Shown here one piece after another: positions 1 through 5,724 of a stretch of DNA of 64,000 bases. The stretch comes from Bacteroidetes bacterium GWF2_41_31 (lineage in GTDB: Bacteria; Bacteroidota; Bacteroidia; Bacteroidales; F082): contig MEOL01000043.1 of the NCBI GenBank assembly GCA_001769215.1, positions 1-64,000 on the forward strand, read 5' to 3'. Below the pieces are notes generated by a model. The model saw only the letters and a program-made list of their open reading frames with translations, ran no database searches and was not told the DNA's origin. A program made the position numbers and the translations under genes. Position 1 is the first letter of the stretch. Each line of letters begins with the position of its first letter.

Positions 1-115
1 TGCATTTTAACGAGTTTTAAAGCTTGAACTTATCAACATAATGATGTGAATATCAGTTGATAATGATTGATTTTTTGAAAAATCAGCAGACCCTAAATAT
101 TGCACCAACACAACC

Positions 116-199
116 CTGGCGCGCGTTTAGCGTTAGCGTAACGCGTGATTTTTAGCATGCTATCAAATTTCATGACAACTTCTAAGTTGGCACGCGAAA
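116..199. repeat. Dispersed GC-rich palindromic repeat, copy 1
   Basis: A 33-bp segment (116..148) is repeated at 15293..15325 with one mismatch. In both places it is followed by a second arm starting ggcacgcgaaa (here 189..199). The segment is rich in CGCG and GCGT and can fold on itself. It is non-coding in all frames. It looks like a family of short intergenic repeats scattered through the chromosome; the family name is not known to me. Confidence 0.65.
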
Positions 200-252
200 G
201 TTCATCCTCGTTACCGCTACGCTCAAACGAGGGTTCCTATCAAATAGATTTA

Positions 253-601
253 ATGGGGTATCCGATCATCTCCCGTGCTGATTTTCGGTTATTTTCATGA
301 TTCACCTTTCTAGACCGGACTCATTATTCAATGGATGGTGCTGCATACAAGTATATTGTGTATTGGTTTTGATGGTGTATTTTGAGGTGCAGCGCACCGA
401 AAATATTTATAGCCAATTCAATAACAGTAGATTCAAGGTGCGGAGCATCGCAATATTGATTTACAATTAAATAAATGGGAAAATATGACGGTGCGCTGCA
501 CCTTAAAAAGTGTGTTCTTGTCGTTCTATAAATATTAGCGGTACTCCGTACCTTTTATCTTATCTTTAAATCTTATAACGGGAGATGATCGGATACCCCA
601 T
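253..601. mobile_element. MITE-like element with 24-bp perfect terminal inverted repeats and 9-bp target duplication
   Basis: Positions 253..276 are the exact reverse complement of 578..601 (24 of 24). The 9-mer atagattta lies immediately outside both ends (244..252 and 602..610) as a direct repeat, as expected of a transposition target duplication. The 349-bp interior has no credible gene. It carries nested palindromes: a 13-bp motif at 386..398 recurs inverted at 490..502, and related GGTnC-type hairpins sit near 434 and 540..552. The right duplication contains the arfB stop codon (608..610) and keeps it intact. The element is too short to be autonomous, so it would need a transposase in trans. 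The parent IS family cannot be named from the sequence. Confidence 0.85.
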
Positions 602-607
602 ATAGAT

Positions 608-1039
608 TTATTCCTCATCCGGTTTTTGCCTTCTCTGCTTCTTTTCAGCAACCATCTTTTTTTCTTTCAGTTTTCGTTCGATGCTGCCTTTGCCTGGCTT
701 TGTGGGCACACGTTTCTTGCGCGGCTTAAGTGCTTTGGTTATGAGTGCGTAAAATTTCTCAATCACCTCTTCCTTGTTGGCCAATTGCGACCGGGAAGTC
801 TGACAGGTAAGCACAAGAAATCCTTCGTTGTTGATTTTGTTGGCGAGTTTTTCGGTTAAGATTTCTTTTTCACTTTCCGAAAGCAATTTCGAATCCATGA
901 TGTGAAACCGCAACTCTATTTTGGAGCTCACTTTGTTCACGTTCTGTCCACCCGGCCCGCTGCTGCGGCTGGCACTAAAAGTCCATTCGGGAGTAAAATC
1001 GCGAAATGGGCTATTATTGGGAGCTAAAGGGATTGACAT
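608..1039 (-). CDS. arfB: Peptidyl-tRNA hydrolase ArfB (YaeJ-type ribosome rescue factor)
   Basis: This is a release-factor-like protein that hydrolyses peptidyl-tRNA on ribosomes stalled on mRNAs without a stop codon. The class I release factor motif GPGGQNVNK is visible, with GGQ at residues 30-32. The C-terminal tail is rich in Lys and Arg (KPRKKRVPTKPGKGS onward), as in ArfB, where the tail enters the empty mRNA channel. Its 143 residues match the family, and the codon-recognition domains of true release factors are absent. I chose the ATG at 1039 because the only upstream option is a TTG three codons earlier. Its stop codon lies inside the target duplication of the 253..601 element, so the insertion left the gene whole. 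Confidence 0.9.
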   Translation of the reverse strand: MSIPLAPNNSPFRDFTPEWTFSASRSSGPGGQNVNKVSSKIELRFHIMDSKLLSESEKEILTEKLANKINNEGFLVLTCQTSRSQLANKEEVIEKFYALITKALKPRKKRVPTKPGKGSIERKLKEKKMVAEKKQRRQKPDEE

Positions 1040-1095
1040 GTGGAGCAAATTATGGTGAGCTTTATCATTCTAAATGAGGTTGGTTAAGGAAGGGT

Positions 1096-2640
1096 TTATT
1101 CATTTTTCTTCTTTACATACTTCGATCGGGCAAACAATGCATCCAACTTATCTTCGTTCAGTGATGGATTGGTGATGGGCATTTGATCATTCTGTACCTC
1201 GTATTCAAGCAATTTTGCTTTGCCTTCGTTGGTTAGCAGCGGAATTAAACTCCATCCCCGGTTGGTGGTTTCGATATATTCACCTTTTTTGTTAACGATG
1301 TTCAAACAGGGAAGAAAACAATCTTTTCTGCCAATAAACTGATCCATGATTTTTACAGCATTCGCATATTCCTTACGCGATGCCCTGCCCAGGGCTTCAT
1401 AATCAAAAATGATGCGTCCATCCCATGTCATTACCTTAGCCGAACCATCATAGATATTGTCTTCAATCGTCAGGCCTGAATGTACTGTATCGTGACCCGA
1501 TGGCATCAGCAGTACTTTTCCCCCACCGCCTTCAATGTTTGAAGCGAACATGGGTTTGTAGATGCCGGATATCCAACCTTGCAAATGCTTGATAAAGATT
1601 TTGCCAATTTGAATGGGTGTGATAAAATGCATCAGCCCTTTTTCTTTGTGACATTGTAACAGGTAATAGGGTTCCACGCCTGCCCAGAACATTCGCCTGA
1701 AAGTAGTGGCCAATGTTTTGTAATAAGCATTTACGTGCTTTAGCAGGACTGTCTGGTTTCTTACCGAATATCCATGGCTCCTGATGCGTTTGATGGCAGC
1801 GTGCATTTCTTCGGTAATTTCCTGATAATGGTTGATATGGGTCATGAAATACACCAGTTTTTCAGGGCCTTTATTGTATTTGTTGACAGAGTGATCGATG
1901 ACGTTGAGCAGTTCTTCGGTAACTCCCATTGGCATTACCACTGGTACCCGGGTTGCAATGCGGATGCTGTTTAGATGAGGAACACGGCTAAGCTCTCCGA
2001 GGATATATCCTAAGCTTTTCTTACCAATTCTCAGTGCATCGCCTCCTGTTACCAAAACCTCGTCTATATTCGGATTGTGGGCAATATAAAACAGTCCTTT
2101 TTGAATGTCTTGATCACTAATGAAACTGGCTGAATCGAGAGATTTGGTCCGTTGACAATGTGTACAATAAGCCGCACAGGCTGAATTGTCACTTACAAAA
2201 AAAGCGACCCTGTTTGGATATCGTTGATAAACAGCACCGTAACTTCTGCTACCTTCCTCCATAGCTTCTTCCTTCCCTGCATCAGGAAATAGGAGGTGGG
2301 CCGGAGTGGGAACGCTTTGCCAAAAAATGGGATCCAATCGGTGTGAAGCTTTTTCCCCTTCCAGCATCTTGGGATGAAAAACATCTTCCTGCATCAACGT
2401 GGCATAATAAGGCGTAATGCGCATCGATTCTTTTCCTTCGGCCCTCAAAGTATCAATGGTACGTTGAATTTCACTTTTTTGATAATCGCTTAGGGTGATC
2501 ACTTGTGATAAGGCTTCCACATCCCGGATGGCATTTCTGTCTTGCCATAACGGGTTTTGCCATTCTTCAAATGATACGTTTTTCCAACGCTTAATGGTTT
2601 GATAAGATCGTGGTTTATAATAAAATGTTTCTTGTGTCAT
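1096..2640 (-). CDS. KamA-family radical SAM 2,3-aminomutase, substrate probably not lysine
   Basis: It belongs to the lysine 2,3-aminomutase family, which moves an alpha-amino group to the beta carbon using S-adenosylmethionine, a [4Fe-4S] cluster and PLP. The cluster motif is Cys155, Cys159 and Cys162 (CAAYCTHC). The PLP lysine is Lys375 in GGGGKVLLMP. The two aspartates that hold the lysine side-chain amine in the clostridial enzyme (Asp293 and Asp330) align with His331 (followed by Lys332) and Asn368. From memory, glutamate 2,3-aminomutase has Lys and Asn there, so a different substrate such as glutamate is plausible. I chose the ATG at 2640; an earlier one at 2676 would place a TAAATTTGC promoter-like box inside the coding region. 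It may be independent of the pigment genes upstream. Confidence 0.8.
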   Translation of the reverse strand: MTQETFYYKPRSYQTIKRWKNVSFEEWQNPLWQDRNAIRDVEALSQVITLSDYQKSEIQRTIDTLRAEGKESMRITPYYATLMQEDVFHPKMLEGEKASHRLDPIFWQSVPTPAHLLFPDAGKEEAMEEGSRSYGAVYQRYPNRVAFFVSDNSACAAYCTHCQRTKSLDSASFISDQDIQKGLFYIAHNPNIDEVLVTGGDALRIGKKSLGYILGELSRVPHLNSIRIATRVPVVMPMGVTEELLNVIDHSVNKYNKGPEKLVYFMTHINHYQEITEEMHAAIKRIRSHGYSVRNQTVLLKHVNAYYKTLATTFRRMFWAGVEPYYLLQCHKEKGLMHFITPIQIGKIFIKHLQGWISGIYKPMFASNIEGGGGKVLLMPSGHDTVHSGLTIEDNIYDGSAKVMTWDGRIIFDYEALGRASRKEYANAVKIMDQFIGRKDCFLPCLNIVNKKGEYIETTNRGWSLIPLLTNEGKAKLLEYEVQNDQMPITNPSLNEDKLDALFARSKYVKKKNE

Positions 2641-4234: not shown

Positions 4235-5448
4235 GACCTGGAGATATTAGATGGAACTTTTGAAAAAACCACGGAGGAATCATTTCCTCCAAAACCAAAG
4301 CTATTGGTTAACACGTGGTTGATGTTCAGGTCGGTAAGTTGGCTCACGGGCACAAAGTTGATTTCTTCAATCACTTCCTTAAAATTGATGTTCGGAAAGA
4401 CTTTGTCGATGTTCATTGACAGTATGGAGATAATGGACTCAATCACACCTGTAGCCCCCAATGTATGTCCGGTGAAGGCTTTGGTTGAACTAAAAAGAGG
4501 AACATGGTCGCCAAATAGACGTTTCATGGCCACGCCTTCGGTGAGGTCGTTGTTGTCGGTTCCTGTACCGTGAACATTTATGTAATCAATGTCTTGAGGG
4601 GTTATTCCTGCTTTTGCGACCGCACGTTGCATGGCCAAGAACGGGCCTTCACCATTATCCGAGGAGGCCGTTTGGTGAAAAGCATCATTGGCATTGGCAT
4701 ACCCGGCAACCTGTGCGATCACCTGTTTTTTTCCGGCGATGGCATCCGATGTACGTTCCAGCACCAGATATCCAGCCCCTTCCCCCAGATTCAAACCACG
4801 GCGCGTGGCATCAAAGGGTCGGCAATGTTCATGATCCAGGATCATCAGGGTGTTAAAGCCATTCAGTGTAAACCGGCTCAACGCGTCGGTACCTCCAACA
4901 ATTACAGCATCCAACAGGTTGTGCTTAAGCAAGCGGGCTCCAAACATGATGCTGTTCAACGATGAAGAACAAGCCGTGCTGATGGTGGTTAAATAATCGT
5001 GAATGTTGAGATCATCGGCAATCATTTCGGTGCTGTTGCCGGCATGGTGGGTGTCGATGTGGCTTTTATGGATGGCATCCGTGAGGAAATCTTTGTAATA
5101 CAGTTCACTGCGGTCCATTCCACCCACGGTGGAGGCTGAAACCAGGCCGATGCGCTTACCCGAATTTTTCGATAATCCTGCTGATTGGTAAGCCTGACGG
5201 GCAGCCCAAACGCCCAGAAGCGCGGTACGGGTCCAGGGTAAATTGAGATCCACTCCCAATTTTTCCATCAATTGCTGATGAGTGAGTTTAATTTCACCCA
5301 GCACAAATTCGTCCCGGTGAATGGTTTCAAGAATAGAGATTTTCCCAATTCCTGTTTTCCCAATCATCAACGAATGGAGCGTTTCATCCACATTAAATCC
5401 AATGGATGAAACAATACCCATCCCTGTTACCACTACCCCTTCGGCCAT
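4231..5448 (-). CDS. Active beta-ketoacyl-ACP synthase (FabF/ApeO-like)
   Basis: This is a KAS II-type condensing enzyme that extends an ACP-bound chain by two carbons with malonyl-ACP. All catalytic residues are present: Cys160 in STACSSSL, His293 in NVHGTGTDNND, Lys323 and His328 in KAFTGHTLGATG. Its 405 residues are normal for FabF. It lies 18 bases after the ACP gene and overlaps the inactive homologue downstream, so ACP, ketosynthase and putative chain-length partner form one coupled unit. In aryl-polyene and flexirubin clusters such enzymes elongate an aryl starter into the polyene. It could also serve ordinary fatty acid synthesis, but the neighbours argue for a dedicated pathway. Confidence 0.85.
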   Translation of the reverse strand: MAEGVVVTGMGIVSSIGFNVDETLHSLMIGKTGIGKISILETIHRDEFVLGEIKLTHQQLMEKLGVDLNLPWTRTALLGVWAARQAYQSAGLSKNSGKRIGLVSASTVGGMDRSELYYKDFLTDAIHKSHIDTHHAGNSTEMIADDLNIHDYLTTISTACSSSLNSIMFGARLLKHNLLDAVIVGGTDALSRFTLNGFNTLMILDHEHCRPFDATRRGLNLGEGAGYLVLERTSDAIAGKKQVIAQVAGYANANDAFHQTASSDNGEGPFLAMQRAVAKAGITPQDIDYINVHGTGTDNNDLTEGVAMKRLFGDHVPLFSSTKAFTGHTLGATGVIESIISILSMNIDKVFPNINFKEVIEEINFVPVSQLTDLNINHVLTNSFGFGGNDSSVVFSKVPSNISRS

Positions 5449-5466
5449 CTCGCTTTTTTATTCGGG

Positions 5467-5724
5467 TTATTTTTTTTGGTGTTCCTGGATAAATTCAGCC
5501 ATGGTTTTAATCGAAAAGAAGATTTTTTGCCCGTCTTTAGGGTTTTCGATTCTGATGCCATATTCTTTTTCCAGAAGGACAATCAGTTCGAGCGCATCGA
5601 TTGAATCGAGGCCAAGACCTTCCCCAAACAGTGAATCTTCTTCATTGATGTCGGCAGGAGTGATGTCTTCCAGGTTTAATTGTTTGATAATCTGTTCTTT
5701 TAATTTTTCAATTAAAGCTTCCAT
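5467..5724 (-). CDS. Acyl carrier protein
   Basis: A small acidic protein of 85 residues with the phosphopantetheine attachment motif GLDSIDALEL; the Ser of DSI carries the prosthetic arm. The helix around it and the following IVLLEKEYGI match ACP helices II and III. It carries the growing chain between the ketosynthases and dehydratases of this operon. It lies between the CLF-like gene (9-base gap) and the active ketosynthase (18-base gap). It is the only ACP visible in the window, whereas E. coli-type aryl-polyene clusters encode two, so a second may lie outside. Confidence 0.9.
   Translation of the reverse strand: MEALIEKLKEQIIKQLNLEDITPADINEEDSLFGEGLGLDSIDALELIVLLEKEYGIRIENPKDGQKIFFSIKTMAEFIQEHQKK

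Follow-up and report, generated by a model that had tools for sequence, protein, structure and literature searches.

A 349-bp stretch of non-coding DNA inserted at the end of an arfB-like gene of Bacteroidetes bacterium GWF2_41_31 is in all likelihood a MITE of an IS1595-family insertion sequence (IS), which would have been inserted by way of ends recognized in trans and which carries a block of REP units as cargo. The element occupies positions 253 to 601 of the window (the whole 64,000-nucleotide stretch of DNA that was analyzed). Its terminal inverted repeats (TIRs), at 253 to 276 on the plus strand and 578 to 601 on the minus strand, are complementary at 24 of 24 positions and are bordered by two copies of ATAGATTTA, at 244 to 252 and 602 to 610. 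The boundaries given in the original prediction, namely, perfect 24-bp TIRs and a 9-bp duplication delimiting a 349-bp element, were borne out. The adjoining gene runs from 608 to 1048 on the minus strand and is called arfB-like from a GGQ motif read by eye. Its TAA stop codon at 608 to 610 falls within the right-hand duplication, so that the gene retains its own stop and is intact despite the insertion, as had also been proposed.

A 21-bp part of the TIR, searched with up to 3 mismatches, matched twice in the window versus not at all in 100 shuffles. No transposase gene is present in the element, the overlapping open reading frames (ORFs) having just 51 and 57 amino acids (listing minimum, 40). 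The 349-nt element folds strongly on both strands (z scores of −8.64 and −9.55, with none of 100 shuffles folding equally well), which is what perfect TIRs alone would tend to give. An Rfam scan of window positions 1 to 1200 returned three matches with E values of 0.22 to 0.46, which were far under the gathering scores and were taken as chance.

Further copies were sought in the source genome (G000; 4.5 Mb in 52 contigs) and in a genus set of five assemblies, G000 to G004, which are 91 to 99% complete. In the source genome, 27 matches to a 19-base core of the TIR were obtained at up to 3 mismatches, versus 0 for the reversed pattern. The genome-wide search for inverted pairs of ends detected ten further convergent pairs in this genome, at C14:159827-160122, C15:3500-3916, C17:211275-212669, C26:32948-33241, C33:81752-82290, C34:159289-159580, C47:110251-110545, C47:121807-122106, C52:80690-81041, and C52:124274-124477. 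Element copy numbers are lower bounds, 40 of 65 candidates having been scored in G000 and similar parts in the other genomes. With up to 2 mismatches, the TIR was matched in 7 of 100 genomes (the source genome included), with many matches in each of G000, G001, G002, and G003, which belong to one genus, and one each in G034, G053, and G083. The TIR was, hence, present in three of the four other genus genomes versus single matches in 3 of the 95 remaining relatives; the fifth genus member, G004, had none at this threshold. Unpaired single TIR matches in Nocardia, Anaerolineales, Kangiellaceae, Solibacter, and other distant records were taken as chance. A search of plasmids with the element (distant mode, E of 1e-5) yielded no match.

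Flanks matching at 8 or more of 9 bases were detected for 16 of 31 paired elements versus 30 of 930 mismatched flank pairings, offsets of 0 to 2 bases either side being applied in the same way to data and control; 5 of the 31 pairs represent the same insertion in a second genome (by eye from the flanks), and the 31 are not independent events. The remaining 15 pairs fell below 8 of 9 bases and included the full-length ISs L144 (5 bases), L162 (2 bases), and L126 (7 bases, with an offset); the 204-bp copy at C52:124274-124477 had a flank match of just 5 of 9 bases. The 9-base comparison overlooks an 8-base match, AAAATGTA, at the C17 element. Single ends, spans of more than 2,000 bp, and pairs with fewer than 12 flank bases are omitted from this set (L133 and L127 being dropped for this last reason), and L109 is retained both here and in the REP counts below even though its right end, with 5 mismatches and no duplication, is probably spurious.

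A scan of one genome per species detected 34 stretches with an 18-base TIR core, "other genomes" denoting, here and below, those outside the five genus genomes searched. Three records named Bacteroidota hold an IS1595-family IS of 977 to 980 bp whose ends are identical or nearly identical to those of the window element. The ends of the first of these, L144 (980 bp), are identical to the two TIRs of the window at 24 of 24 bases each; the others are L133 (977 bp) and L126 (977 bp, 79% identity, two mismatches in one TIR). Between TIR pairs about 980 bp apart, L133 and L144 each encode a 306-amino-acid transposase that matches PF12762, PF12760, and NF033547 (the NCBIfam IS1595 model), and the partner ISs carry both domains, DDE_Tnp_IS1595 and Zn_ribbon_IS1595. 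Six aligned transposases have D, D, H, and K in common at positions that we take to be catalytic. A relative (76%) with diverged ends was present in G039, a member of the same family as the source genome. A transposase gene with the same ends, for which the original prediction had proposed a search, was therefore found, but in other genomes. At L144, a reading frame (5191 to 5577) that looks by eye like a response regulator enters the left end of the IS, which supplies its final codons.

The 204-bp copy in the source genome consists of 136 bp resembling the IS right end (90%) and 72 bp resembling the left end (89%), with a 5-bp overlap. The last 40 to 44 transposase residues are recognizable in it, with one TGA inside the match, and this is the sole coding remnant in that genome; by its alignments, this copy is an internal deletion of an IS1595-family IS. 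Searches of the five genus genomes detected no intact transposase with such ends, although a copy may have been missed at 91 to 99% completeness. At an E value of 1e-10, no IS1595 transposase homologues were detected in G001, G003, or G004, and only the remnant was detected in G000. A homologue in G002 (48% identity) was rejected as a partner because its ends differ. Pfam searches of ten ORFs from 8 of 20 loci in G001 and G002 detected no transposase, an ORF of L113 having no match of any kind. The 1.4-kb C17 element, considered as an autonomous copy because of its length, was rejected, as it contains no transposase-sized ORF but, instead, a tandem array of type B REPs. The MITE family, hence, looks orphaned in the genus, no intact transposase with these ends having been found there. 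The array in this element (L058:776-2170; G000:C17:211275-212669) is built of tandem units of about 190 bp, and what is apparently the same insertion is present in G003 (L105, on C23) with a different array length (1,395 bp and 11 pattern matches in L058, 822 bp and 5 matches in L105).

Positions 278 to 328 of the window (26 to 76 of the element) were initially assigned to the IS right end. This assignment was replaced, as the segment aligns better with the end of a third miniature-element family whose TIR is GAGTCCGGTCTAAAAAGG (score of 77.5 versus 41 and 22.5 for the right ends of the L144 and L133 ISs). Judged from its sequence, the window element is a mosaic of IS1595 TIRs, a third-family end, and a four-REP block rather than a simple deletion of one IS. 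Members of the third family (L074, L075, L076, and L077) have apparent duplications of 6 to 7 bp, as read by eye. A fourth miniature element, with GAGTCCACTCCGAAAA ends and AATCTT on both sides, lies within the MITE copy L059 (G000:C33:81752-82290) and is not found at that place in the other aligned copies with type A REPs.

The REP cargo of the window element, termed type A, extends from 322 to 571. Two inner motifs, at 386 to 398 and 490 to 502, had been noted previously as possible sites for the transposase or for hairpins in RNA. These motifs are real and have two relatives, at 437 to 449 and 540 to 552. All four are REP-like palindromes: unit 1 (386 to 398) is GGTGCAGCGCACC and unit 2 (437 to 449) is GGTGCGGAGCATC, or GGTGCGGAGCACC in the G001 copy, both on the plus strand, while unit 3 (490 to 502) is inverted on the minus strand, as is unit 4 (540 to 552), GGTACTCCGTACC, which differs from units 1 to 3 by one change per arm with pairing intact. 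The units, hence, run + + − −, with two per half, which is more than in a minimal REPIN. The REP pattern had 3 matches in the 64-kb window versus 0.17 expected. As read from the sequence, none of the four palindromes has a GTAG next to it, the nearest being at 427 to 430, six bases from unit 2, and the inner units were, therefore, not filed as GTAG REPs. They are best read as RAYT-linked REP units and not as sites for a transposase of the element itself.

One or both of two REP-type cargos were carried by 23 of 24 paired elements of the genus (L109 being among the 24). Type A was present in 11 of these, the window element included, with four units in 8 and three in 3 by pattern; type B, whose REPs are of the GGCTAAAGCC kind, was present in 9, of which 7 have two units and 2 have one. 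The rest comprised two elements with both kinds, one with none, and L109, which has type B content and a doubtful right end. Neither kind of REP unit was detected in the 7 paired elements from other genomes. Type A REPs were also found without IS1595 ends. Eleven REP-A loci had no TIR-like site at up to 5 mismatches, and 10 of these matched positions 70 to 319 of the element only, indicating that this part acts as a separate unit; the 11th, L213, matched positions 37 to 226. This count derives from 32 loci examined, rather than from every element match, with L007 and L210 set aside and one-ended MITE copies uncounted. The latter two loci have weak TIR-like sites and could be decayed MITEs.

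Both REP types clustered around Y1 transposase genes. Type A was found around an intact RAYT gene at G002:C99 (6 REP sites, 12 matches counting both strands) and around a broken one at G001:C26 (6 REP sites, 10 matches), while type B was found around a Y1_Tnp gene with one stop at G000:C3 (12 matches) and around an open one at G003:C22 (10 matches). Among 30 Y1_Tnp loci, 5 had at least 10 matches (representing four places, one being listed twice), 3 had one or two, and 22 had none; as a background, the entire 64-kb window has 5 type A matches and 1 type B match. The type A pattern had 0 matches at Y1_Tnp loci other than G002:C99 and G001:C26 among these 30. Y1_Tnp matches are present in all five genus genomes, the core of the element is of REP type, and tyrosine transposases flanked by TIRs have been described (PMC3733652, accessible part); hence, the entire element could be envisaged as a tyrosine transposase product, a long REP cluster with TIRYT-type 24-bp TIRs and no role for IS1595. 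This origin is highly improbable, as the TIRs match those of ISs encoding a DDE transposase of the IS1595 family, duplications of 8 to 9 bp fit IS1595, and the 30 Y1_Tnp loci contain just one match to the TIR at up to 4 mismatches, in L221, the other 29 having none.

A different question is whether the REP block is a passenger of the MITE or a working part of it, selected at gene ends as a terminator or as mRNA-stabilizing hairpins. The latter is unlikely in our assessment. The strong folding on both strands, the location of the window copy at the 3′ end of a gene, and the retention of REP units in 23 of 24 genus copies are consistent with such a function, but any inverted repeats yield fold strength, and the same ends occur without REPs in the 204-bp copy and in all 7 elements from other genomes, which indicates that the block is not needed for the spread of the ends.

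The insertion site was compared with arfB loci of the other genus members. G002 and G003 carry arfB (95% and 91%, respectively, over the aligned parts), share the sequence just past its stop codon, and have one CATGATTTA and no element, as anticipated for an empty site, but the sequence to the left of CATGATTTA differs in both from window positions 1 to 252. In G004, arfB (67%) is also without the element, and no TIR-like site with up to 6 mismatches was detected at the arfB loci of these three genomes. The right-hand query detected only its far part in G001, in which arfB was not seen. Contig C348 of G001 matches the window through the left flank and the insertion point and into the element as far as position 506, with identity at 408 of 412 bases, and then diverges inside the REP block. 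Two outcomes that would have spoken against the proposed transposable element, namely, relatives with the same 349 bp, diverged flanks, and no empty sites, or ends unshared with any other copy, were not encountered. Window positions 1 to 99 are a repeat, with 98 to 99% identity to the start of C50, the end of C44, C28:103765-103859, and C50:295248-295341, and may mark the border of a mobile element that was not assembled; two short repeats, at 116 to 154 and 203 to 232, recur at many places in the genus genomes.

These comparisons raise the possibility that the left flank, the element, and arfB were joined artifactually at a repeat during assembly. The closest match to the left flank is in G001 (99%) and that to the right flank is in G002 (98%), G002 and G003 do not have window positions 1 to 252 beside arfB, and positions 1 to 99 are themselves repeated. 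Such an artifact is nonetheless very unlikely, since the same 9 bases at both junctions would be unexpected of a chimera, a match of 8 or more bases having occurred in 30 of the 930 mismatched pairings. Judged by its duplication, the insertion is real, although the locus does not offer a clean comparison of the states before and after insertion.

The identical ends on ISs, the 204-bp deletion derivative, the many copies, and the duplications all point to probable mobilization by an IS1595 transposase and link this short repeat to a parent IS. We propose that the DDE transposase encoded by an IS about 980 bp long recognized the 24-bp ends in trans and that insertion would have duplicated 8 to 9 AT-rich bases, 9 bp in this case, at the end of arfB. 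The four-REP block probably arrived through RAYT-linked transposition or recombination, after which the IS1595 transposase may have copied it as a passenger, with a sister subfamily likewise carrying the REPs of a different RAYT. The family may now be immobile in the genus, to judge from the absence there of a transposase with these ends. There is, in addition, a tentative suggestion, which we regard as doubtful, that one DDE MITE family served at least twice as a vehicle for the REPs of two different RAYT systems. If so, a REP block could spread by two unrelated transposases, and the near-universal REP content in the genus could reflect either a competitive advantage of REP-loaded MITEs over empty ones or a preference of RAYT insertion for a hairpin-forming MITE. 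In this stacked arrangement, REPs, which are thought to depend on Y1 transposases, would move with elements that a DDE transposase disperses. Where RAYT activity is inferred from REP populations, composites of this kind would make copy counts less clear; they would also serve as a natural experiment on whether a MITE benefits from a REP block or is hindered by it.

The element is a MITE and, as such, of a known kind. The literature searched, most subscription papers being beyond reach, yielded no account of RAYT-linked REPs within an IS1595 MITE and no precedent for two RAYT-type REP cargos in one DDE MITE family. The window element differs from the IS1595 family in containing no transposase and in having an ATGGGG tip, and the partner has H at the presumed third catalytic position in the six aligned proteins. 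It resembles this family in the GGGG near its tip, as in ISApl4 (PMC12561309), and in its AT-rich duplications of 8 to 9 bp (PMC8101967). According to the accessible parts of these sources, IS1595 duplications are usually 8 bp and those of the related Merlin elements are 8 or 9 bp (PMC8101967), while ISApl4 has A/T-rich 8-bp repeats and a GGGG tip and IS1016 elements have repeats of 7 to 9 bp (PMC12561309). BrickBuilt of Porphyromonas gingivalis (PMC4596501) and MITEAba12 (PMC6382973) are similarly short and non-coding, with inverted-repeat ends and several copies, and BrickBuilt also has a repeat array inside a MITE (PMC4596501); as far as the available text of these reports goes, the window element is distinguished by inner repeats belonging to RAYT-linked REP families and by an identified parental IS. 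Inverted pairs of short palindromes clustered around a Y1 transposase gene are shared with REPINs and RAYT-linked REPs, whereas the REPs of the window sit between DDE-type TIRs with target duplications and have no adjoining GTAG tag, unlike those in the accessible sections of PMC3116915 and PMC6006769. A comparable arrangement is that of the REP dimers of A. variabilis, T. roseum, and H. neapolitanus, which are likewise embedded in larger palindromic tracts, although those carrier palindromes are, in the accessible part of the source, tied to no IS and to no target duplication (PMC3733652).
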